27,258 nt of DNA from a virus: positions 17,550-44,807 of the IMG/VR virus record IMGVR_UViG_3300030116_002299. The stretch is one strand, 5' to 3'. Position 1 is the stretch's first letter. Every line of letters begins with the position of its first letter. Positions 99-26,750 of this stretch are shown here, one piece after another. Made by a program: the position numbers and the translations under genes. The notes below the pieces were generated by a model. That model worked only from the letters and a program-made list of their open reading frames with translations. It did not search any database and was not told the DNA's origin.

Positions 99-323
99 TT
101 ATTTTTTGTAAACCTTTTCTGATGCTGAAATACCAAATGACCCTAGAGTAACCCAAACAAATGAATTATAAATATAATCATTTACCATTAACTCTATACC
201 TATGATACCCATAGCCAAATCAACAATACCAAATATACACATTAGTGCAAATGATAAAAATCCAATAATATTCTTTTCGTTATATTCATTTTTGTCTTTA
301 AATAATTCCCACATTTTATTCAC
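99..323 (-). CDS. Small two-helix membrane protein, holin-like
   Basis: This 74-residue protein has a charged N-terminus (about residues 1-18, MNKMWELFKDKNEYNEKN). Two hydrophobic stretches follow, at about residues 19-40 (IIGFLSFALMCIFGIVDLAM) and 49-66, and it ends with a short basic tail (EKVYKK). The size and topology fit a class of small phage membrane proteins that includes holins. It overlaps the upstream Hint-domain gene by 8 bases and is followed by another small membrane protein, so a lysis or membrane-associated pair at the end of the late transcript is plausible. No sequence signature proves holin function. Confidence 0.65.
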   Translation of the reverse strand: MNKMWELFKDKNEYNEKNIIGFLSFALMCIFGIVDLAMGIIGIELMVNDYIYNSFVWVTLGSFGISASEKVYKK

Positions 324-1425
324 CTATCTCTGAGTGTACTAGTACGCCATTTGCATAAAAGTTATTATTCTTTGTTAAAATTGTATATGTCCAATGTTTC
401 TTTGGAAATCCTTCTAATCTATGAACTTGTGCATAATATTTACCATCTAATATTTTTAGCAAATCATTAGGCTGTATAGCAGCTGCATCTAAATCATAGT
501 TTGCTGATGTTCTACTTGGATCATCAGATACCATACTACCATCTTCTTTATATACAGGGTGGTCTTGTGTAAGTATCAACTCTTTTAATTCTTCACCATC
601 TGTTTCATCGTTCGGGTCTGATAGCATAATCTTATATAAGTTATCATGTAATCTTTTTTCTATTTGTAATATTTCTACTTCTTCTTCTTCTCCAGTTTCC
701 CAGTTGTAAGACATAATCATATCTCCAACATTTAAATCATGTATGTTTGCAGTTCCTTCTTTTAAATTAACTGGTATGTTTTCATAAATACATAAACCAA
801 ATCCGCCACCACCACCAGAAAATGTAATATTACCTGTAATAGTTGCACTAACACTATTATTTGTAAGTGTTAATGTGTATGCACCTGTACCATCTTTATT
901 AGAAGGTGAGTGAGCCCATCTAGTTCTAATATATCTTGTTCCTGAATTATGTCCAGTGTATAAACTATTACTATTAGATGATGACACACTTATAAAATTT
1001 GTACCACTATTACTTGTACCCATAAAACCAGGGTCTCCACTAGAAGATGTAGCCATTGTAAATGTACCAAACGGTCCACCAGTTGTTGATAAAGAAAGAC
1101 TTGTACCGCCACTACCATTAGATACTGTCATCTGTGCATCTTTAGTACTTGTACCAGTACCTCCTGGTAAATCGGTAAGATTTAATCCAGTATTGTCTGT
1201 AGTGCTCCAAGATGTACCAGCTAAGTCATGGTCATAACTATAGAACTCACTCATAGCATGAGGTGCACTACCATCTGGTCTGTCTGCACTAGCATTTTGT
1301 GTGTTAATAGTAGCTACAGTTCCATCAGATAAATCTTCTAATGAACTGTTAGCAGTAGTTCCACTTCTACCAAACTCAACATTAATATCGTTCATACTAA
1401 TTTGTCCTGATGAAGTAAGAGCCAT
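316..1425 (-). CDS. Tail-associated protein with C-terminal Hint (hedgehog/intein) domain
   Basis: 369 residues in two parts. Residues 1 to about 207 are Ser/Thr/Gly/Asn-rich, low in charge and likely beta-structured, as in phage fibre or adhesin proteins; they end in a glycine run (GGGGGFG, 205-210). From C212 the sequence changes to an acidic Hint-type module: C212 begins block A, LNVGDMIMSYN (231-241) follows, TQDHP at 286-290 matches the block-B TxxH motif, and FYANGVLVHS (356-365) matches the C-terminal block. The usual terminal His-Asn is His364-Ser365, so Asn cyclisation is not expected and a hedgehog-like N-terminal cleavage or thioester chemistry is more likely. It overlaps the long fibre gene by one base. 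The Hint call is strong; self-processing is inference. Confidence 0.8.
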   Translation of the reverse strand: MALTSSGQISMNDINVEFGRSGTTANSSLEDLSDGTVATINTQNASADRPDGSAPHAMSEFYSYDHDLAGTSWSTTDNTGLNLTDLPGGTGTSTKDAQMTVSNGSGGTSLSLSTTGGPFGTFTMATSSSGDPGFMGTSNSGTNFISVSSSNSNSLYTGHNSGTRYIRTRWAHSPSNKDGTGAYTLTLTNNSVSATITGNITFSGGGGGFGLCIYENIPVNLKEGTANIHDLNVGDMIMSYNWETGEEEEVEILQIEKRLHDNLYKIMLSDPNDETDGEELKELILTQDHPVYKEDGSMVSDDPSRTSANYDLDAAAIQPNDLLKILDGKYYAQVHRLEGFPKKHWTYTILTKNNNFYANGVLVHSEIGE

Positions 1426-4118
1426 TATTTTTTTAACTCCTCTATCTCTGCTTTTAATTCTTTAATAGACTCAATTAATAATGGAACAAGTTTTTCATAC
1501 TTAACTGCTTTATATCCATTATCTCTTGTAGTTACTATTTCTGGTAATACTTCTTCTACTTCTTGTGCTATAACACCTACATCATGTCCTTTAAAGGTTT
1601 CTTGTTTATCGTTCCAATCAAATTCATAACCAGATAGCTTAGAAAGTTTGTCTAAAGAATTTTCAATAGGTTTTAAATTATCTTTTAATCTTTTATCTGA
1701 TGAAGCATAAGCAACAACATCTTCTCCAGCATTAAGAGTTTTAGCAACACCTAGACCACCACTTATCTTTACTGCTCCAGTAGTTTTAGATGTAGAGTTT
1801 GTTGTATTACTAAAAGTTATAACTCCACTTGCAGTGTCTGTAGCATTGCTTCTTAAATACTTTGAGTCTGTATGTTGTGTAATACTTGATGCAGCTATTC
1901 TAGCATCTGCAATAGTACCACTAACTATTTTACTTGCAGGAATGTCATCTACTAACGCCAGATCTCCTAATCCTAAAGCTGAAGCAGTAGTATATCCATA
2001 ACTTAAAATTTTATCTTCTACCGCTGCAGAAGTCATAATGTGAGCATCATTGTTAGTAAACTCTCCTGAGTCATCTACACCTGTAATAGTATTACCGTCA
2101 AGAGTAAACCCACCAGTTAATGTTGATGTGCCACCAACCTTTAATGCTCCACCAGCATAAATACCCTCTTCGTGTGCAAATCCGTAAGTGTCTAAATCTT
2201 CTAATGAATTTCCGTGTACAGAATAACCAGTTTTAGTATTTTCTATTACAGGAGTATGTACTGAATGGTCACCATAATGAGCATCGTCTCCCATACGAAA
2301 TATCTTTACATCATAAGAAGAATTTGCTTCAACATAAACTTGTAATAATTTTGTTCCATAAGTATTATCACTATCTTGGCTTAATACTCTTACCCCAGTA
2401 ATTCTATTTTGGTGTCCACCACAATTTATAACAGTAAAGTTGCTATCCATAAAACTTCTTAACCAATGTATTCTAATAAATCCGTGGTCTCCAGAATCTG
2501 CGTCTGTAACTAATATTTCTCCAGCTTTTCTACCACTTGAATTAGAAGCTACTGTCATCCAACCTGGACCTACTGTAGCAGAATCACTTCCTTGTCTTCT
2601 AAAAAATCTTGTCGAATCATAATTATCTAATGTAGTAGCATTAATGCCTAAAGCATCTATATCAGATTTAGTTTGGTCTGCAGTAGCTCCACTTTCTATT
2701 CCATCTAATTTACTATGGTCAGAACTTGTAAAAGCAACTGATGTTGTGCCATTTATTGTTAAAGCGTCAGTTTCTAATGTTCCATCTACATCTACATTTC
2801 CAGATATGTCAAGAGTAGCTGCTGTCACTGTACCAGATGTAGTAAATCCAGCAGCAGTTATTGTTCCACTTGTAGTATCATTACCATTATTTTTTAAGAA
2901 AGCATCATCAACATTTAAAGTATCCCCACTCAAAGTAATATTTGTTCCTGCACTCAAATTAGTTTTAGATGAAATATCAATCGTTGGTATTCTTGCAGCG
3001 TCAAATGTACCAGATGTAATTTTACTAGCTGCTAAGTTAGGTATTCTGGCAGTTCCAAATGTTCCAGAAGTTATTTTACTTGCTGCTAAATTAGCAATTC
3101 TTGCTGCAGCTACTGTACCACTTGTAATTAAATCTCCACTATGATTAGGAACAGAAGTTAAAAATGCAGATGCGTGACTACCATCTAATGTATCAGCATC
3201 TAATCCATTTCCACTACCCTCATCTGAAGTAGTTAAAAGTCTTTGCCAATCTTGCCAGTCATCTGTTGTATCTCTTAATGTTCTAAAATATAAATTCGGA
3301 GTACCAGAATACCATTGAGCTCCTATTTGTGCAGAGCCACCAGTTCCTTGTCCAAAAGCTAATACTGAATAATATCCAGAAGCTGTACCAGTTCCCAATG
3401 TTCCATTATTTCTGTTAAATGTATATATACCAGTTTCGTGTACACTTCTACCAGTTTCAGCTGTTGTATCTCCAATATCAAAAGAGTTGTGTGCTATTCT
3501 TGCTGCATCAAATGTACCACTAGTAATCTTAGAAGTTGCTAAATTTGGTATTCTAGCAGTTGCTAATGTACCAGATACAACTTTACTTGCAGGAATATCA
3601 TCTACTAATGCTAAGTCACCTAAACTTGCAGTAGTTGCTAATCCACTAATTCTAGTAGTTACATGGTCATATATTTGGTCGCCAGTTGCTAAAGTTGCAG
3701 CACCATTAGCTACTGCAGCAGTGTCTAAAACAGCACCAGTGCCTAATCCTAAATTACTTCTAGCACCACTAGCACTAGATGAACCAGTACCACCATTAGC
3801 TACTGCTAAGTCAGTGCCACTCCAATTAGAATTATTTATTGTAGATAATGTTGATAAAGAACCTAGTCCTAAATTACTTCTAGCACCACTTGCATCACTT
3901 GCTCCAGTACCTCCATTCGCAACTGCCAAATCAGTACCAGACCAATTAGAGTTGTTAACAGAAGATAGTCCACCTCCACCTAATTGACGATATGTACCAC
4001 CATCATTAATATATAGCTCTGTTGTACCAGTTCTATATCCTAACTCATAATGTTCTAATACATCATTAGTTGAAGAGGGTACACCCGACCCTCTTTTTAT
4101 TTTTATTACATTACCCAT
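1425..4118 (-). CDS. Long tail fibre / tailspike with C-terminal S74 intramolecular chaperone
   Basis: 897 residues. The N-terminal part starts MGNVIKIKRG, similar to the start of the neighbouring 311-residue protein, and is followed by low-charge repeats: a 32-residue unit with NWSGTDLAVANGGTG occurs twice, and a KITSGTFDAARI-type unit recurs several times. The middle is Gly/Ser/Thr-rich and beta-like. The last 91 residues form a peptidase S74 (intramolecular chaperone) domain: SDKRLKDNL with S807 and K812 as the likely Ser-Lys dyad, then VGVIAQEVEEVLPE, VKYEKLVPLLIESIKEL and a coiled-coil end. In known phages this domain trimerises the fibre and then cleaves itself off. The protein probably binds the host surface. 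It abuts the 311-residue gene with no gap. Confidence 0.88.
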   Translation of the reverse strand: MGNVIKIKRGSGVPSSTNDVLEHYELGYRTGTTELYINDGGTYRQLGGGGLSSVNNSNWSGTDLAVANGGTGASDASGARSNLGLGSLSTLSTINNSNWSGTDLAVANGGTGSSSASGARSNLGLGTGAVLDTAAVANGAATLATGDQIYDHVTTRISGLATTASLGDLALVDDIPASKVVSGTLATARIPNLATSKITSGTFDAARIAHNSFDIGDTTAETGRSVHETGIYTFNRNNGTLGTGTASGYYSVLAFGQGTGGSAQIGAQWYSGTPNLYFRTLRDTTDDWQDWQRLLTTSDEGSGNGLDADTLDGSHASAFLTSVPNHSGDLITSGTVAAARIANLAASKITSGTFGTARIPNLAASKITSGTFDAARIPTIDISSKTNLSAGTNITLSGDTLNVDDAFLKNNGNDTTSGTITAAGFTTSGTVTAATLDISGNVDVDGTLETDALTINGTTSVAFTSSDHSKLDGIESGATADQTKSDIDALGINATTLDNYDSTRFFRRQGSDSATVGPGWMTVASNSSGRKAGEILVTDADSGDHGFIRIHWLRSFMDSNFTVINCGGHQNRITGVRVLSQDSDNTYGTKLLQVYVEANSSYDVKIFRMGDDAHYGDHSVHTPVIENTKTGYSVHGNSLEDLDTYGFAHEEGIYAGGALKVGGTSTLTGGFTLDGNTITGVDDSGEFTNNDAHIMTSAAVEDKILSYGYTTASALGLGDLALVDDIPASKIVSGTIADARIAASSITQHTDSKYLRSNATDTASGVITFSNTTNSTSKTTGAVKISGGLGVAKTLNAGEDVVAYASSDKRLKDNLKPIENSLDKLSKLSGYEFDWNDKQETFKGHDVGVIAQEVEEVLPEIVTTRDNGYKAVKYEKLVPLLIESIKELKAEIEELKK
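3741..3956 (-). repeat. Tandem 40-codon repeat inside the long fibre gene
   Basis: Residues 55-86 and 95-126 of the fibre are almost identical 32-residue units: both read NNSNWSGTDLAVANGGTG and end ASGARSNLGLG, differing only around ASD versus SSS. They start 40 codons apart. Copies of this kind are typical of recombining fibre shafts and could expand or contract by slippage. Confidence 0.85.
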
Positions 4119-17496: not shown

Positions 17497-17560
17497 TGTG
17501 TGGTGAAAGAGATTGATATTCTTTCCTGAACAGCCCATTCAGTTCTTGAGTAACCACACA
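17497..17560 (+). ncRNA. Compact three-way-junction RNA element (64 nt)
   Basis: TGTGTGGT (17497-17504) pairs with ACCACACA (17553-17560). Immediately inside, with no linker, come GAAAGA/TCTTTC (17505-17510/17520-17525) and then CTGAA/TTCAG (17526-17530/17538-17542), followed by a 10-base unpaired strand. It lies 26 bases before the next ATG, so it may be a leader element, the third part of the RNA array, or a processing signal. Confidence 0.6.
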
Positions 17561-17993: not shown

Positions 17994-18156
17994 TACATAT
18001 ATAATGAATGATAAGGATAGACAAAAAGCACTAGAAGAGTTCTATGATAGATTTGGAGCATGGTACTTTTTCAATTTTAAAAAGTATGGTGGATACAAAA
18101 AGTCTTGGATAGAACGATATGATAGAGAAATAATGAATCACAGAAAGAGGGTGTAA
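17962..18156 (+). CDS. Unknown small protein (64 aa)
   Basis: 64 residues beginning MKTEVIQPHPDTYIMNDKDR and rich in Tyr, Phe and Arg (FYDRFGAWYFFNFKKYGGYK). I chose the ATG at 17962 because GAAAGGAAAG lies just upstream; an in-frame ATG at 17920 has no such site. It overlaps the preceding gene by 32 bases and the next ATG by one base. The function is unknown. Confidence 0.6.
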   Translation: MKTEVIQPHPDTYIMNDKDRQKALEEFYDRFGAWYFFNFKKYGGYKKSWIERYDREIMNHRKRV

Positions 18157-18569
18157 TGGCAAAAGGAAATAATCGTGAGATTAAAATTAGGTTCGAAAAA
18201 GAAATGCGATTTGCTGGTGAACAGTTAGAAGCAGTAAATGATATTACTTGGAACGAACGAGATGAAGTAGTAAAAGAAGTAATGAAATTAGTATCAGAGA
18301 GATTGGATGCTGGTGCTATTAAGTACAATGAACAAGTTCCAATTACTTTACAAGAGTGTCTTGAATCTAAAAGAGATAATCTTGTAGAGTCAATAGAAGA
18401 AGACGTAGATAGTCTTGTTTACTCAATACCTGAAGTTATTTTACAGACTCAGTTATCAGATAGTATAACATACAACTTGCTACGTAAAGCTAATGTGTAT
18501 AAGTTCTATGCATTGTATTATTCAATGTTAGCACTTAAACACGATACGAAAAGGAAAGAAAATGAGTAA
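18156..18569 (+). CDS. Unknown helical protein, weakly MazG-like pattern (137 aa)
   Basis: 137 residues, mostly helical: MRFAGEQLEAVNDITWNERD, LVSERLDAGAIKYNEQVPIT, and NLVESIEEDVDSLVYSIPEV. The last element, preceded by an AGAxKYxEQVP segment, recalls all-alpha nucleotide pyrophosphohydrolase-like (MazG-type) phage proteins, where a VESIEE..D helix binds metal; the similarity is weak. It overlaps the ubiquitin-like gene start by 8 bases, so the two are coupled. It may be unrelated to the conjugation cassette. Confidence 0.55.
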   Translation: MAKGNNREIKIRFEKEMRFAGEQLEAVNDITWNERDEVVKEVMKLVSERLDAGAIKYNEQVPITLQECLESKRDNLVESIEEDVDSLVYSIPEVILQTQLSDSITYNLLRKANVYKFYALYYSMLALKHDTKRKENE

Positions 18570-18861
18570 CTCAAGTCGCCTATTCACTGGCGTTAAATAC
18601 AAAGTAGATCAACAAGATTGGACAACCGATATGAATGTTCCAGAAAATGTAACAACTGTAGATCAGTTTATTCAATACCTGAATACAGTAGACACTGGTG
18701 CATACAATAGTATTGGTAGAGACAGTACAATCAATGTTAATGTACAGCAAGGTAACAGAGCTACAGAGCTAAGTGCTATTAGGCCAGACGCTCCAGGTAG
18801 TGATGTAGATGGCCACTTATGTTTCATTACATTTAATAGAAACAGTAAAAGAGGTGGATAA
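18562..18861 (+). CDS. Ubiquitin-like modifier (Ubl) with C-terminal Gly-Gly
   Basis: 99 residues ending FITFNRNSKRGG followed directly by TAA, so the chain ends in Arg97-Gly98-Gly99 with no extension. That is the mature form needed for adenylation by an E1 enzyme. The rest fits a beta-grasp-sized protein: strands around TGVKYKVDQQDW, a helix VTTVDQFIQYLNTV (about 30-43), strands INVNVQQGN and HLCFITFN. The fold is inferred from size, layout and context rather than identity. The next three genes encode E2-like, JAB and E1-like proteins, which makes this the obvious modifier. GAAAAGGAAAG precedes the start, which overlaps the upstream gene by 8 bases. Confidence 0.8.
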   Translation: MSNSSRLFTGVKYKVDQQDWTTDMNVPENVTTVDQFIQYLNTVDTGAYNSIGRDSTINVNVQQGNRATELSAIRPDAPGSDVDGHLCFITFNRNSKRGG

Positions 18862-18873
18862 CTAATACAATAT

Positions 18874-18898
18874 GGGGGGTGACAATATGTTGCCCCTC
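18874..18898 (+). promoter_or_regulatory. Strong hairpin between Ubl and E2 genes
   Basis: GGGGGGTGACA (18874-18884) pairs with TGTTGCCCCTC (18888-18898) through 11 pairs, three of them G-U, around a 3-base loop. It lies between the Ubl stop and the ribosome binding site AATGAAAGGAAAGG of the E2-like gene. With no T-run it is not a simple terminator. It could lower downstream expression or define an mRNA end, so that the modifier is made in excess. Confidence 0.7.
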
Positions 18899-18919
18899 AA
18901 TGAAAGGAAAGGAAATAAT

Positions 18920-20755
18920 ATGTGGATTAAAGAAGATATTGAACAACTTAATATCGATATTGATTTACTATCTCAAGAACTAATACTTGGTCCAAGTAAT
19001 ATGGTAAACAAAAAGATTGCAGCACTGAACAGAAGGTGGATTACAAACACTTATGTTAGTGGCAATAGGTCTTACCTAGAACCACTTGAACCATTACGAT
19101 TCACTAAGAAGTATCGTTGGTCACCTGGCTACAAAGACATAGTTAAACAAGTAACAGTAGAAAGACTATTGCAACTTGAAAAGCCTGGTACATTGTCAAC
19201 GATGAGAAGTAGAATGAATAATCAAGAATGGAATATGAAATACTTTTGGGAAGATCTGATGGCTATTGAAGACCTGATGAAAGAACTCAGAAGTAGAAAA
19301 GCAAGTACAGATGATGATATGACATCAGCAAAGAACAACTTGAATAATGTGATTACAACACTACTAAAGAAAGTTGAAGACGCAAAAGTTCTATTCGATT
19401 CATATCCAAATATGGAATATCTATTTAGATTTATTTACAAAGATCCAGATAGATACGATCCAGAAACACAAGATAGAATGCAGTTTGATGAAAGTCAAAT
19501 GTCAGCATTGAAACTCTTGACTGGTCAGATTGAGTTGTCTTTTAAGTTTGAAAATCCTACAATGGAAGTTCATACAACAGATAATACATTTGCAAAAGAC
19601 TATGAAGGAAGTAAATCGTATGGTACAATACAGTTCAAGAAACCTGTATACCTGAACTTTAGATTACCTTTGTTTGAATTGTTTCAAGCATTGTATACAT
19701 CTGACTTAGAATCTGTAACTGAAAGTGAGATATATGGTAGATTGTCACACGATAGTTTGATGACTAAAAGAAACTTTCTATCAATATATGGGTTCGGTGA
19801 TTTATTGAATAACAGATATTCATTTAATAACAATTCAGTTAGAGGTTGGTTTGATGATGGAAATATAAGACATCCATACATTAATCATCGTGATAATCGT
19901 GAACAAGATTCAGTTGATTGTTTTGATGTATGGCAAGTTCCAGATACAAGTGTTTGTTTAGGTAACATGCAAAACGATATGTTGAATGCATTTGTTCAAA
20001 TGGATTTTATCCAGTTACTTACACTGATACAACAATGGAATAAGTATTGTATGTACAATACAAACCCACTAAACAATATATCATATTCATTTGATAGATT
20101 TATTAGTGCAGATGATTTCAGTGAAGATATGTTTACAGATCATGTGAACTTTCAATTTGATACATTGCATCGTCAATCTATGATAGATATTGGTTTCAAT
20201 CCTAATGAACTTGATATCAAAACAACATATCAAGATAGTAGTTGGGACAGAGGTGGTGCATTCTGTTACACTAATGCATTTGGTTATGATCAGATTGGTC
20301 GTGAAGATGGAGTACATTTTGGTATTGATATGACAAGTAGAGATTATCGTGCACATATAAACTCTGTTAGATATTATCTTGATAGATATGATAATCCAGA
20401 TGGTGAATATATATATGATGATATAATCACAGCAGAAGATGTAGCAACATACGAATCAATTAAGATTGCATTGATGCAAGAGTGGATTGATTGTCTTGAA
20501 AGTAATAACTGTATTACAAGTAAGTATGGTAAAGCATATGAAGTAAAACAGATTCTAGATAAAATCAATAATGTAGAAATGGAATCAGAAACAATAGAAC
20601 CAGTGGAAGAAGATGATGATGATGGTTGGGAACCAGTTGTCAATCCACATGCAGACTTACCATTTGGTAGCGATGAAACTATCGTAGCAAGTGAGTTTGG
20701 AACTGCAGAAGAAATACAATCAGCAATGGAACAACAAATGATGGAGGATATGTAG
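18920..20755 (+). CDS. Large E2-like ubiquitin-conjugating protein
   Basis: 611 residues from the ATG at 18920, which follows AAAGGAAAGGAAAT; an in-frame ATG at 18872 lies in the hairpin and lacks such a site. Residues 318-348 carry an E2/UBC-type signature: HPYI (318-321), then DTSVCLGN with C346 (codon 19955-19957) as the likely thioester cysteine, then a long helix FVQMDFIQLLTLIQQW, as in HPN...G.ICLG active sites. Strands before it (IELSFKFENPTMEVH, YGTIQFKKPVYLNFRLP) fit the E2 sheet. The N-terminal 190 and C-terminal 230 residues are not from a recognised family; the C-terminus has an acidic run (PVEEDDDDGWEP). Typical E2s are about 150-200 residues, so the large flanks may hold ligase or target-binding functions. 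It carries the Ubl from E1 to substrate. Confidence 0.78.
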   Translation: MWIKEDIEQLNIDIDLLSQELILGPSNMVNKKIAALNRRWITNTYVSGNRSYLEPLEPLRFTKKYRWSPGYKDIVKQVTVERLLQLEKPGTLSTMRSRMNNQEWNMKYFWEDLMAIEDLMKELRSRKASTDDDMTSAKNNLNNVITTLLKKVEDAKVLFDSYPNMEYLFRFIYKDPDRYDPETQDRMQFDESQMSALKLLTGQIELSFKFENPTMEVHTTDNTFAKDYEGSKSYGTIQFKKPVYLNFRLPLFELFQALYTSDLESVTESEIYGRLSHDSLMTKRNFLSIYGFGDLLNNRYSFNNNSVRGWFDDGNIRHPYINHRDNREQDSVDCFDVWQVPDTSVCLGNMQNDMLNAFVQMDFIQLLTLIQQWNKYCMYNTNPLNNISYSFDRFISADDFSEDMFTDHVNFQFDTLHRQSMIDIGFNPNELDIKTTYQDSSWDRGGAFCYTNAFGYDQIGREDGVHFGIDMTSRDYRAHINSVRYYLDRYDNPDGEYIYDDIITAEDVATYESIKIALMQEWIDCLESNNCITSKYGKAYEVKQILDKINNVEMESETIEPVEEDDDDGWEPVVNPHADLPFGSDETIVASEFGTAEEIQSAMEQQMMEDM

Positions 20756-20756
20756 T

Positions 20757-21620
20757 ATGAGTAAGTTCGTAATGTCTAATGAAGATTGGACAACACTAAT
20801 GCAGTATGCCAAATATGCATACGATGAACATAAATCAGAGATAGGTGGATACATGGTTGTTAAATATGTAGACAAACAGTTTGTATTTTCTGAGCCAGTT
20901 ATACTTCAACAAGAAATAACAGCTAGCAATACAGACATCACAACAGAAGCACTAGGTAAATACTTTACTGAAACAGAAATCAAATATGGTGGTGAACCGT
21001 ATTGGTTGTGCTGGTGGCATAGTCACCATACAATGGATGTATTTTGGTCGGGAACAGATAAGACAGCAATAGAACAATCTGTTAATGACAACTATGCATT
21101 TTCATTGGTAATCAATCTGAAACAAGAACAGATACTTAGAATCAGTGATTGGAAAACTGGTACACAAACAGATACAAAAGTTAAAATACTTGGTAAAGAA
21201 TTTGAAATACCACAAAGTATTAAAGATGAAGTAGAAAGTTTGTGCACTAAACCTACACTTGTAAGAACTAATACTGGTTGGTATGGTCAACATTATTCTA
21301 AAAAGATAAGTAAAGAACAATTAACAATGTGGCAAGATGAACTAGATGATGAAAGAGTAAATCTTGAAGCAGACATTGATAACATATTGCAAGACTATCT
21401 GATAGATAATGACTACCCAACTGCAAGAAAACGATTTGGAACTTTGAATCGTAAACTTGGACAAAGTAAAAGTGAACTAAGAGTAATCAAACTTGAACAA
21501 GATGAGTTGGATACAGTAATAAATTATGCATTAGCAGAACAATATATCTATGCTAAAGGCACAGAGCCTGACAAAGCAGAGATGATTGCTGATGCATCAT
21601 TTGAAAGGAGTTTTAAATGA
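20757..21620 (+). CDS. JAB/JAMM-family metalloprotease (deubiquitinase-like)
   Basis: 287 residues. The N-terminal 130 residues form a JAB1/MPN+ domain with the full zinc motif: E28 in SEIGGYMV, then WWHSHHTMDVFWSGTD giving H88, H90, S98 and D101 (HxH-x7-S-x2-D). Such enzymes hydrolyse the isopeptide or peptide bond after the Gly-Gly of ubiquitin-like proteins. The C-terminal 150 residues are helical and charged (QDELDDERVNLEADIDNILQ, FGTLNRKLGQSKSELRVIKL), possibly a coiled-coil docking segment. It starts one base after the E2 stop and overlaps the E1 gene by 4 bases. Because the Ubl is encoded already mature, removal of conjugates is a likelier role than precursor processing. Confidence 0.9.
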   Translation: MSKFVMSNEDWTTLMQYAKYAYDEHKSEIGGYMVVKYVDKQFVFSEPVILQQEITASNTDITTEALGKYFTETEIKYGGEPYWLCWWHSHHTMDVFWSGTDKTAIEQSVNDNYAFSLVINLKQEQILRISDWKTGTQTDTKVKILGKEFEIPQSIKDEVESLCTKPTLVRTNTGWYGQHYSKKISKEQLTMWQDELDDERVNLEADIDNILQDYLIDNDYPTARKRFGTLNRKLGQSKSELRVIKLEQDELDTVINYALAEQYIYAKGTEPDKAEMIADASFERSFK

Positions 21621-22267
21621 ACGAGAGATATGCAGGCTTAGTAAATAACTTTGATAATTATGCATATCATTTCCTAGGTTGCGGTGCTATTGGTAGTGCC
21701 GCAGCTGTAACTATGGTTAAGATGGGTGCTAAATGTATTCACTTGTATGATATGGATAAAGTAGAAAGACCCAATGTTGGTGTGTCAGTATACGATACAA
21801 ACGATATCAATAAAGATAAAGTATCAGCATTGAAAGATAGATTGCTTCTAATAGATCCATATCTAGAAGTACATACACATCATGGTATGTTTGAACAATA
21901 CAAACCAGAAGATAACAATGTAGTTATACTAGGTTTTGATTCAATGGAATCTAGACTATATGCAGTAGAACAAATATTGAAACATAAGAAACCAGATGTT
22001 TTGATTGATGGTCGAATGGGTGCTGAGCATTATCAACAGTACACATTTAAAAATCCAACACTATCACAATACAAGAAGACTTGGTATTCAGATAGTGAAG
22101 GTGATGACGAACCTTGCAATGCAAAAGCAACTAGTTATTGTAGTAGTATGACTGGTAGTTTTATATGCAACAATGTCAAAAAGATATTGAAGGACGAGCC
22201 ATATTTGAATAATTTTTCTTTTAATTTTCAAACAATGGCACTAAATTCAAATGGTTTCGTAAGTTAA
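21617..22267 (+). CDS. E1-like (ThiF/MoeB superfamily) Ubl-activating enzyme
   Basis: 216 residues, a Rossmann adenylation domain. GCGAIGS (21-27) binds ATP; LYDMDKVERPNVG (43-55) has the Asp pair D45/D47 and N53; NKDKV supplies K66/K68; VVILGFDSMESR (102-113) has D108 and R113. C167 in DDEPCNAKATSYCSS is the best candidate for the Ubl thioester cysteine. In the usual SNLNRQ motif the Arg-Gln is replaced by Val56-Ser57, so the canonical arginine finger appears missing or moved. The length matches minimal ThiF-type E1s without extra domains. It has a strong AAAGGAG site and is coupled to the JAB gene. It should adenylate the Ubl Gly99 and pass it to C346 of the E2. Confidence 0.88.
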   Translation: MNERYAGLVNNFDNYAYHFLGCGAIGSAAAVTMVKMGAKCIHLYDMDKVERPNVGVSVYDTNDINKDKVSALKDRLLLIDPYLEVHTHHGMFEQYKPEDNNVVILGFDSMESRLYAVEQILKHKKPDVLIDGRMGAEHYQQYTFKNPTLSQYKKTWYSDSEGDDEPCNAKATSYCSSMTGSFICNNVKKILKDEPYLNNFSFNFQTMALNSNGFVS

Positions 22268-24179: not shown

Positions 24180-24433
24180 TGTCTGCACAAGATATCATAA
24201 TTGCATGGATTAAAAGTATAAAATCTAAAAATCCAGTGTTTTATAGTTATGATTTAGAAGGTGCATTACCTACATATGGAAACCTAGTACATCAAAAGAT
24301 GCACACTGGAAGTACTTATGCTAGGGCATTTAGAAAGATTCGTGAAGAAAATACTTTAAGTAGACACGGATTAAAGTTAGAAGAAGTTGAACATAGCAAT
24401 AGTAAGGTAAAAGGATGGAAGATAACAGACTAA
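24179..24433 (+). CDS. Small protein, possibly winged-helix (84 aa)
   Basis: 84 residues, helix-rich and basic: MSAQDIIIAWIKSIKSKNPV, then VHQKMHTGSTYARAFRKIRE and a strand-like end (LKLEEVEHSNSKVKGWKITD). The order helix, helix (S/T-rich turn), helix, beta-hairpin would fit a winged helix-turn-helix DNA-binding protein. It overlaps the primase-helicase gene by 19 bases, so it may be an accessory or loader, but this is not shown. Confidence 0.6.
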   Translation: MSAQDIIIAWIKSIKSKNPVFYSYDLEGALPTYGNLVHQKMHTGSTYARAFRKIREENTLSRHGLKLEEVEHSNSKVKGWKITD

Positions 24434-26208
24434 TAGAAGTTGTAAAAGGTAGCATTAGAAATAGAAATAATGTTATGTCTTACAAAGACTATTTAGAAGT
24501 AGAAAAACAAAACTACTTTGGTACTGAAATGTATAGATCATATTATCTTTTTGATAACACTTTACAAAATCATGTTGCTTTGTCTAAGTCAGTAAGAAAG
24601 TTTGATGGCTTAGCATATTTAGATAGAATATTAATAGATATAGATAAAGGAGATATCGATGGAAATGATTTACAAGATTATATTAGACATTGTTGTAATG
24701 AGCTTTTCGATTATGGTATTAATTCTGAGCATGTTAATATTTGGTTTAGCGGCAGTGGCTATCATATTGAGCTACTTAATGTTTTTGGGTTTCAACCTAA
24801 TAAAAACCTACATACAAAAGTTAAATCTACATTAACAGAGCACTTCAGTTTTGGTGACAACATATACGATAAAATGAGAATCATTAGATCAAATTGGTCA
24901 TTAAACAAGAAGACTAGTCTATATAAGGTATGGATACCTTTAGATGATATTTGGACAATAAGTTACGATGAAGTTTGCAGTATAGCAAAATCCAAAGCAG
25001 CTTATACTAAATATAGCAAAACAAAAACAAACTTTTATGCTACATTTAATGCTTCAGATATATATATAGAACCTTATTTACAAAGTTCTATAGTATCAAA
25101 AGTAAGTGCAAGTTCAAATGTAATACCAATGAATACAGGTAAAACTAATTCAGTTGTTACTTGTGTTCAACACATCTTTAATGAAGGGCCTTCACAAGGT
25201 TCAAGAAATATGAAGATGATGCGTATGATAAGTTCATATAAAAGAGCAGGTATTCCATTTATAGTTGCATACAACGGTATGATACAATGGGCACAAGGTG
25301 AGTTAGAATTAGATGAAATAAATAGAACAGTACAAAACATATATGATAATCAATATATATATGGCTGTGATGATTCTATTCTAATGGAGTATTGTGATCC
25401 AAAATGTATACACTTTAAACGTAAAGACTATGTATTAGATATACGTGATGTTAGTTCATTAGAAGATACATTCAAAGAATATATTACTAATGACTTAACA
25501 ACAAGAAGTGTAAACATGCAAGATATATTTGATGGTGCACCAGACTATGCATTTAGACCAGGTGAACTTATTATATTTAGTGGTGATACAGGTATGGGTA
25601 AGACAGCTTTTGTACAGAACATAGTTGCAAAAGCAAAGAAAGATACTTTGTTTTTATCATTAGAAATGAATGAGATATTAACTTGGAGAAGATTTGGTCA
25701 GATTGCTAAAAAGAAAAACAGTGATTGGATTATAGAACAATATAAAAACAATCCAGACTTTTCTTTACAAGATGAACTAAGTCATCTAAAGATAATGGTG
25801 ATAGCACCTGAGATTGAGGCTGTAAAGAAAGTAGTAGCACAATATGAACCTAATATATTAGTAGTAGATACTACTGATGAAATGCAAGTAGATAGGTTTG
25901 ATGGTGATATACAAAAACAAAATGTTATTATAGATGCATTGAAACAGATTGCACAACGTAATAATACTTTGATCTTTGCTATACATCACCTGAACAAAGC
26001 TAGTGCTTCACAAGGTACAGTTGGGCTACACTCTCTTAAAGGTTCATCAAATGTAGTACAGAAAGCTGATAAAGTTATTGTTTTAAAGGGTAATCGTAAC
26101 GAAATTTATAGAACTGTTATGTCTGAGAAATCTAGAGATGACGGTAAATTAGAATTTGTTACAGAGTTTAATCCTGAAACAATGACATTTAAAAAAGTAA
26201 ACATATAA
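24415..26208 (+). CDS. Bifunctional primase-helicase (AEP-type primase + DnaB-like helicase)
   Basis: 597 residues. The N-terminal part resembles an archaeo-eukaryotic primase: LIDIDKGD with D75/D77, IWFSGSGYHIEL with H117, and MRIIRSNWSLNKKTSLYKV as the following basic segment. A linker has C318, C327 and C331 (YGCDD, EYCDPKCIHF), possibly a metal site. The C-terminal RecA-fold helicase has GDTGMGKT (390-397, Walker A), LSLEMNE, ILVVD (481-485, Walker B), FAIHHLNKAS and GSSNVVQKADKVIVL. It would unwind the fork and make primers. It is the central replication gene; no DNA polymerase is seen in this window. Confidence 0.85.
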   Translation: MEDNRLIEVVKGSIRNRNNVMSYKDYLEVEKQNYFGTEMYRSYYLFDNTLQNHVALSKSVRKFDGLAYLDRILIDIDKGDIDGNDLQDYIRHCCNELFDYGINSEHVNIWFSGSGYHIELLNVFGFQPNKNLHTKVKSTLTEHFSFGDNIYDKMRIIRSNWSLNKKTSLYKVWIPLDDIWTISYDEVCSIAKSKAAYTKYSKTKTNFYATFNASDIYIEPYLQSSIVSKVSASSNVIPMNTGKTNSVVTCVQHIFNEGPSQGSRNMKMMRMISSYKRAGIPFIVAYNGMIQWAQGELELDEINRTVQNIYDNQYIYGCDDSILMEYCDPKCIHFKRKDYVLDIRDVSSLEDTFKEYITNDLTTRSVNMQDIFDGAPDYAFRPGELIIFSGDTGMGKTAFVQNIVAKAKKDTLFLSLEMNEILTWRRFGQIAKKKNSDWIIEQYKNNPDFSLQDELSHLKIMVIAPEIEAVKKVVAQYEPNILVVDTTDEMQVDRFDGDIQKQNVIIDALKQIAQRNNTLIFAIHHLNKASASQGTVGLHSLKGSSNVVQKADKVIVLKGNRNEIYRTVMSEKSRDDGKLEFVTEFNPETMTFKKVNI

Positions 26209-26218
26209 AGGAAAGATA

Positions 26219-26425
26219 ATGATAAAATACAAACATACAAATAATAATGACGTAAATATGAGAAAGTTAACACTGTTTAGTTTATTTGATTTATGTTATT
26301 ATGTTGACTCTAATATTGGTAAACACTATGGTATATCAATAGGAGTTGGTACTAAACAATTACATTTATTATTACGTAATTGGGATACCAGTATAACAAT
26401 GAGATCGCCTAAGTATGACGCATAA
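26219..26425 (+). CDS. Unknown small protein (68 aa)
   Basis: 68 residues: MIKYKHTNNNDVNMRKLTLF, then SLFDLCYYVDSNIGKHYGIS and LHLLLRNWDTSITMRSPKYD. It has a clear GGAAAG site and overlaps the nuclease gene by 11 bases. Tyr, Asn and Leu dominate. No family is recognised. Confidence 0.6.
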   Translation: MIKYKHTNNNDVNMRKLTLFSLFDLCYYVDSNIGKHYGISIGVGTKQLHLLLRNWDTSITMRSPKYDA

Positions 26426-26750
26426 AAATAAAGTTCGTGGCAACAATCTTGAAAGAGAAGTTGTTAATGCAGCTAAAGAAGTGGGGCTCTCTGCAAAGAG
26501 GGCCTATGCTTCTGACGGCAGATCATTAGGTAAATCAGAAGTCGTTGATGTAATAGTAGAAGACTATTGCGTGCAAGCAAAACGAAGAAAAAGAATAGCT
26601 GAATGGTTATATCCAGATAATCATGGTGAAGACGTAGATGTAGTAGTAACTAGAATGGATAGAAAAGAACCTTTAGCTGTAATACCATTGAAAGAATGGT
26701 TAAGACTAATAAAGATAGAAAGGGAAAATAATGATGATAGAGATGAATAA
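26415..26750 (+). CDS. Holliday-junction-resolvase-like nuclease (PD-(D/E)XK)
   Basis: 111 residues. The Hjc-type layout is clear: RGNNLEREVVNAAKEVGL with E13, KRAYASDGRSLG, then VVDVIVEDYCVQAKRRKR with D45 and Q54-x-K56. These are the E...D...(E/Q)xK elements of the PD-(D/E)XK fold; the usual Glu before the Lys is Gln here, a change also seen in active members. It would cut branched recombination intermediates, fitting the annealing protein and packaging of concatemers. It overlaps both neighbouring genes. Confidence 0.75.
   Translation: MTHKNKVRGNNLEREVVNAAKEVGLSAKRAYASDGRSLGKSEVVDVIVEDYCVQAKRRKRIAEWLYPDNHGEDVDVVVTRMDRKEPLAVIPLKEWLRLIKIERENNDDRDE

Follow-up and report, generated by a model that had tools for sequence, protein, structure and literature searches.

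Complete gene sets encoding a ubiquitin-like protein (Ubl), an E1, an E2, and a JAB protease occur in bacteria and plasmids, and those that have been characterized resist phages. The account of Iyer et al. 2006 (PMC1779556) covers bacterial operon types 6a to 6e as well as the phage proteins TAPI and TAPK. Equated from gene content, the PRTRC cassette, which comprises protein C (Ubl), F, B (E2), A (JAB), and ThiF, corresponds to operon type 6d. Bil operons provide the same four activities and are described as anti-phage in bacteria; BilA has a pair of Ubl domains, and BilD combines a Cys domain with inactive and active adenylation domains (reviewed in PMC11354881). In the CBASS system containing Cap2 and Cap3, the JAB protease reverses conjugation (PMC10097602). 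A search limited to open-access journal papers found no description of the phage set reported below.

The window analyzed here consists of 27,258 nucleotides (positions 17,550 to 44,807) of IMGVR_UViG_3300030116_002299, a 44.8-kb virus contig. A P22-type portal, an SU10-type capsid protein, and a terminase were all found on this record, and no DNA-level similarity of the window to named phages was detected. The virion genes are located on the minus strand and the replication genes on the plus strand, the tagging set being among the latter. An earlier note on this DNA had claimed four consecutive genes at 18562-22267, in a phage genome and beside replication genes of the same strand. All four ORFs were found at these positions on the plus strand, and a DnaB-like helicase and a RusA-like resolvase are encoded downstream. 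The features are as follows.

18156-18569 (+): upstream helical neighbor, 137 aa, conserved and kept in set-free sister phages
18562-22267 (+): four-gene set Ubl-E2-JAB-E1, tightly packed ORFs
18562-18861 (+): Ubl, 99 aa, ending SKRGG; mature Gly-Gly end, tail absent in the window copy
18920-20755 (+): E2-like candidate, 611 aa, putative acceptor C346 after HPY(I/V); C346 and C531 invariant
20757-21620 (+): JAB/JAMM metalloprotease of 287 aa, with putative roles in Ubl maturation and deconjugation; Prok-JAB, JAMM residues
21617-22267 (+): minimal ThiF-type E1, 216 aa; Pfam ThiF, invariant residues
22839-23429 (+): downstream flank, recombination-type protein of unnamed PHROG 11717, kept in set-free sister phages
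24415-26208 (+): DnaB-like helicase, downstream of the set on the same strand
26415-26750 (+): RusA-like resolvase, downstream of the set on the same strand

The helical gene at 18156-18569 was assigned to the flank, outside the set, because set-free sister phages have it too. The E2-like ORF stays open back to a further ATG, at 18872. Shine-Dalgarno-like leaders are common, which argues against a Bacteroidota host. Elsewhere in the window, the C-terminal ~160 aa of the protein encoded at 316-1425 (minus strand), from LCIYENIPV to FYANGVLVHS, resemble a Hint/intein-type self-processing domain; phmmer matched this protein to the NrdJ-1 intein (E=0.006) and Pfam matched nothing. The adjacent ORF (1425-4118, minus strand) encodes a long repetitive tail-fibre-like protein, the C terminus of which (SSDKRLKDNL...) resembles, by eye, a peptidase S74 chaperone. 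Outside the window, a 3014-aa ORF with 0 Pfam matches (L082:277-9321, minus strand) is kept in all sister phages compared. A calcineurin-like phosphoesterase gene (L082:14660-15427, minus strand) is present in 14/15 sister-phage records; its product is 80 to 88% identical across the sister phages having it, exceeding the conservation of most of the genome.

The Gly-Gly end, the E2-like Cys, the intact JAMM motif, and the ThiF/E1 domain read in the earlier note are not chance occurrences, since they are invariant across relatives. Pfam ThiF matched the E1 of the window with an E value of 5.8e-19. The protein contains GCGAIGS, D45, D47, K68, D108, and C167; in its family, R4, the GxGxxG motif, D45, D47, K68, D108, and C167 are invariant (C167 and C175 in 62/62 homologs), and the 'NRQ' Arg typical of MoeB is not conserved. 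Among solved structures, the E1 family profile matched UBA5, UBA6, ThiF, MccB, Cap2, and BubCD. The assignment to the E1/ThiF adenylating enzymes is secure. The JAB/JAMM assignment is likewise secure: Pfam Prok-JAB matched the window protein at 9e-5, just below the cut-off, the metal-site residues are E28, H88-S-H90, S98, and D101 (H88, H90, S98, and D101 kept in 64/64 homologs and E28 in 61/64), and the best match of the JAB profile was archaeal Rpn11 (4.7e-6). Unlike with the E1, plain tblastn with the JAB found no phage relative.

Searched alone, the Ubl of the window had no meaningful Pfam, PHROG, or NCBIfam match, its nature being revealed by the family view alone. The AlphaFold (AF2) model of this protein shows a beta-grasp (pLDDT 84.6). 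Foldseek searches with the model returned FAT10, NEDD8, ubiquitin, and MoaD at the top and also matched SUMO and Atg8; nearly all matches listed were ubiquitin-like proteins, with probabilities of at most 0.99 and E values of 0.01 or worse. Pfam ThiS was matched by 12/34 Ubl homologs (best E value, 1.9e-5). The fold was assigned because the match probability, the topology, and the ThiS matches were taken together; on the model, the 99-residue protein has the beta-grasp fold that the earlier note had expected of it. The homologs are single-domain proteins of 67 to 100 aa, and many relatives are compact (66 to 77 aa). The Gly-Gly motif is invariant in the 34 aligned homologs and C-terminal in the window copy. 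Among 75 matches, 22 end exactly with Gly-Gly, 45 have 1 to 8 residues past it (L030, for example, ends NKTGGVPAVA), and 8 have no terminal Gly-Gly. The tails suggest that Ubl precursors are processed by JAB. The Ubl of the window is already mature, and its JAB would therefore mainly deconjugate.

The 611-aa protein, searched alone, also gave no meaningful Pfam, PHROG, or NCBIfam match, and Pfam found no UBC domain among 49 members of its family. C346 and C531 are invariant in all 56 homologs. A (H/F/Y)P(Y/F)(I/V) motif precedes C346, with P319 conserved in 55/56 homologs, and W373 and a TxPLN motif follow it; P319, W373, P383, and N385 are near-invariant. This series is much like the HPN...C...PNP pattern of E2 enzymes, and the relative L042 shows HPFVSSHGGNIC, in which the spacing of an HPN-like motif and Cys is nearly canonical. 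In the family, the His of that motif is not universal and an aromatic residue is present in place of the Asn. The E2 fold that the earlier note placed around C346 is likely. As expected for such a fold, the AlphaFold model contains a helix (residues 191 to 201), four strands (203 to 250), a loop with C346, and helices (348 to 373), but Foldseek retrieved no UBC fold from the PDB and the full-length model had no PDB match of any kind; long insertions in the model probably hinder the search. Against BFVD, the full 611-aa model matched six unnamed viral proteins and, far more weakly (probability 0.18), a 435-aa protein of the phage cr128_1, 435 aa being the length of the cr128_1 gene that precedes JAB and ThiF. 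We retain the protein as an E2-like candidate that probably adopts the fold. Most homologs also contain a Cx4Cx4C motif at residues ~520 to 540, possibly zinc-binding; in the window copy of this region, the strictly kept residue is C531 only (56/56).

A Ubl, a JAB, and a ThiF-type E1 might instead form a sulfur-carrier system of the ThiS/MoaD type, in which the sulfur acceptor would be a cofactor, nucleotide, or metabolite and no protein would be conjugated. Bacterial ThiS-JAB-E1 sulfur operons exist, one of them found on an Aliarcobacter plasmid, the Ubl homologs match Pfam ThiS, and the E1 is like ThiF in size and profile. Such a system does not account for the invariant third partner with its absolutely conserved Cys, which is always present, and no rhodanese, ThiG, MoaE, or cysteine desulfurase was recognized nearby. 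In addition, the JAB has the HSHxxMxxFxSGTD pattern also found in the cassettes of crAss-like phages. We consider sulfur transfer improbable.

The families named in the earlier note (PRTRC, Bil/BUB, and CBASS) do not accommodate the set, which fits none of them on the features tested. The PRTRC cassette resembles it by the order Ubl, E2, JAB, E1, by a standalone single Ubl, and by the E2 acceptor motif (I/V)CxG. Alignment of the E2-like family with PRTRC protein B was limited to the CxG motif (score, 19.1; highest score among 40 shuffles, 18.2), and a PF14460 search of the phage's own genome gave 0 matches, as did its controls. The phage E1 scores 16.1 bits, whereas the TIGR03736 cut-off is 144.75, and the E1s lie on a separate tree branch. 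No ParB, protein E, or protein F was recognized in the window, and the phage JAB lacks the JAB-N domain. PRTRC protein B has a conserved His downstream of the Cys, whereas the phage E2 has no invariant His after C346. PRTRC membership was rejected on the E1 score, the missing ParB, E, and F proteins, and the E2 His. Bil/BUB operons likewise combine Ubl, E1, E2, and JAB activities within one operon, but the phage Ubl is single-domain, the E1 is minimal (216 aa), and the E2 lacks, after C346, the conserved Glu/His set of the CEHH motif (PMC11354881). With the two-domain Ubl, the double-adenylation E1, and the CEHH motif all missing, Bil/BUB membership was rejected. Type II CBASS shares E1, E2, and JAB activities with the set; it differs by its CD-NTase, none of which was recognized in the window, and by the fused Cap2, the phage E1 and E2 being unfused and the Ubl encoded by a separate gene. 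Both the CD-NTase and a fused Cap2 being missing, CBASS membership was rejected. TAPI and TAPK of lambda and T1 are a phage-encoded Ubl and JAB protease, but they come with no E1 or E2, the JAB is fused to NlpC/P60, and the genes belong to the tail gene cluster. Membership was rejected on the features tested.

A related set in the same order is carried by crAss-like Steigviridae (Kehishuvirus/crAss001, cr106_1, and cr128_1) and by Flavobacterium Fipvunavirus phages. It consists of genes for a Ubl-domain protein, a ~430-aa protein in which CxG is invariant, a JAB, and a ThiF E1, annotated as encoding hypothetical proteins, a 'metalloprotease' (JAB), and a 'thiamine biosynthesis protein' (ThiF). 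These sets are located in the replication block, mostly between the primase and UDG genes. The crAss JABs are clearly homologous to those of the window and its relatives, hereafter the marine phages (hhalign, 96.6%). The E1s of the two groups are ~25% identical and have R4, K68, D108, and C167 in common. The E2s and Ubls are too divergent for confident alignment, with no hhalign signal between the marine and crAss E2s. The marine Ubl is standalone, whereas the crAss/Flavobacterium Ubl is a beta-grasp-like N-terminal domain of a longer protein and ends with KxSG. As far as known, the host phylum differs between the groups. In cr106_1 (L084:2722-3925), an HNH endonuclease gene splits the Ubl-domain gene directly behind the KSG end, separating the Ubl domain from the helical C-terminal part.

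Searches of IMG/VR retrieved 218 relatives with the E1 and 346 with the JAB profile, of which the best 80 of each were used, and 107 distinct JAB loci were assembled from viral contigs and cultured phages. Ubl and E2 were present in 67/67 marine loci having at least 3.5 kb upstream, E1 was present in 101/101 loci having enough downstream sequence, and the order Ubl-E2-JAB-E1, the conservation of which in related phages the earlier note had left to be checked, was found in 71/72 loci, these counts being partly circular because some of the same loci had gone into the models. Relatives fetched independently via the helicase and terminase genes showed the same gene set and order. The E1 also found crAss-like and Flavobacterium psychrophilum phages (74 records), and in the E1 tree the marine, crAss/Flavobacterium, and PRTRC sequences formed three separate groups (99/99, 89/86, and 100/99, respectively). 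A scan of ~85,000 bacterial and archaeal species, which used two short patterns and could have missed distant bacterial relatives, found this E1 lineage on one contig only, from a Spirochaetia MAG. This contig was rejected as a source of a bacterial E1, since it groups inside Kehishuvirus and is a crAss-type phage contig.

The set is accessory, since sister phages lack it at the same spot. In L225, L229, and L212 to L214, the terminases of which are 81 to 83% identical, the flanks are the same (the upstream helical gene, the downstream recombination gene, and the helicase) and exactly the four genes are absent. No E1 or JAB was found anywhere in the available records of the set-free sisters, some of which are incomplete contigs. 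Thus, neither the virion genes nor the replication genes need the set to work. In two phages devoid of the tagging set, the gap after the upstream flank gene is occupied by an unrelated pair of genes (342/345 aa and 110/112 aa; L231:6519-5159 and L249:6341-4966, minus strand). Comparison of 10 records with the set and 5 without it revealed no co-occurring gene; since no other gene tracks the presence of the set, no co-acquired phage substrate is visible. In the pair G013 and G014, the core genes are ~90% identical and the E1s only 56%, whereas the E1s of the less related pair G011 and G013 are 67% identical. This mismatch suggests that the set is exchanged between phages.

Among 11 set-bearing records, the products of the set had low median identities (E2, 20%; Ubl, 27%; JAB, 41%; E1, 58%), versus 64 to 82% for the helicase, portal, terminase, and capsid proteins. 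E2 and Ubl are the quickest-changing products of the four genes. In close pairs, dN/dS was below 1 for E1 (0.03 to 0.27), JAB (0.05 to 0.23), E2 (0.16 to 0.43), and Ubl (0.05 to 0.66). As judged from the sequences, all four genes are functional and under purifying selection; the fast evolution of E2 could also stem from weak constraint.

These comparisons bear on the targets, for which the earlier note had offered host proteins, host defence enzymes, or virion or replication proteins of the phage itself. Modification of the capsid, portal, helicase, or recombination proteins, regulating assembly or replication, would fit the location in the replication block of marine, crAss-like, and Flavobacterium phages, and in the tail assembly of lambdoid phages a Ubl (TAPI) is coupled to a JAB protease (TAPK) (PMC1779556). 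Against it, sisters manage without the set although their portal, capsid, terminase, helicase, and recombination genes are the same, so that the phage is less likely to depend on the set for maturation of its virion or replication proteins; no phage gene is gained or lost along with the set, and any such target is far slower to diverge than E2 and Ubl. We regard modification of own proteins as unlikely. Action on host or competitor proteins is more likely.

The four genes probably encode a self-contained, phage-owned Ubl conjugation pathway, the targets of which are most likely proteins of the host, tagged to counter its defence or to take it over, or of competing phages. No E3 accompanies the four genes. 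Host or competitor targets are favored over own core proteins because the set is dispensable, is located on the replication side, and shows the fastest divergence in E2 and Ubl. As predicted from the enzyme families and the invariant residues, the E1 would use ATP to adenylate the Ubl at its C-terminal Gly and would take the Ubl onto C167, from which it would pass to C346 of the E2-like protein. The large, fast-evolving extra regions of that protein may choose the target, on a lysine of which the Ubl would end as an isopeptide. The JAB would remove the Ubl from the target again, by analogy with the Cap3 precedent (PMC10097602), and, in relatives with residues after the Gly-Gly, would first trim the Ubl precursor. 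We infer from gene position only that the set is expressed early.

Targets in a competing phage could also imply superinfection exclusion, in which the set would tag the structural proteins of the competitor and work like bacterial Bil/BUB. In bacteria, Bil-type operons, which provide these four activities, are described as anti-phage (PMC11354881), and the set is accessory, exchangeable, and fast-evolving, as defense genes are. However, its place is in the early replication block and not in a moron or lysogeny region. Neither an integrase nor a repressor was recognized here, so that lasting protection of the host is not obvious, and the E1 and E2 fall outside the Bil and BUB families. Superinfection exclusion of this kind is therefore doubtful.

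Conjugation to host or rival proteins early in infection leads to a broader proposal, which we advance tentatively: two distant phage groups, the marine SU10-capsid phages and the crAss-like/Flavobacterium phages, may own a dedicated Ubl tagging pathway, belonging to a lineage that bacterial genomes essentially lack, as an offensive viral counterpart of the bacterial anti-phage Ubl systems. A distinct, widespread lineage of such sets owned by phages reverses the question, which becomes what phages tag, and cultured gut phages of the crAss001 type offer a system in which tagging can be tested. The set may widen the evolutionary record of ubiquitin-type signaling to phages.
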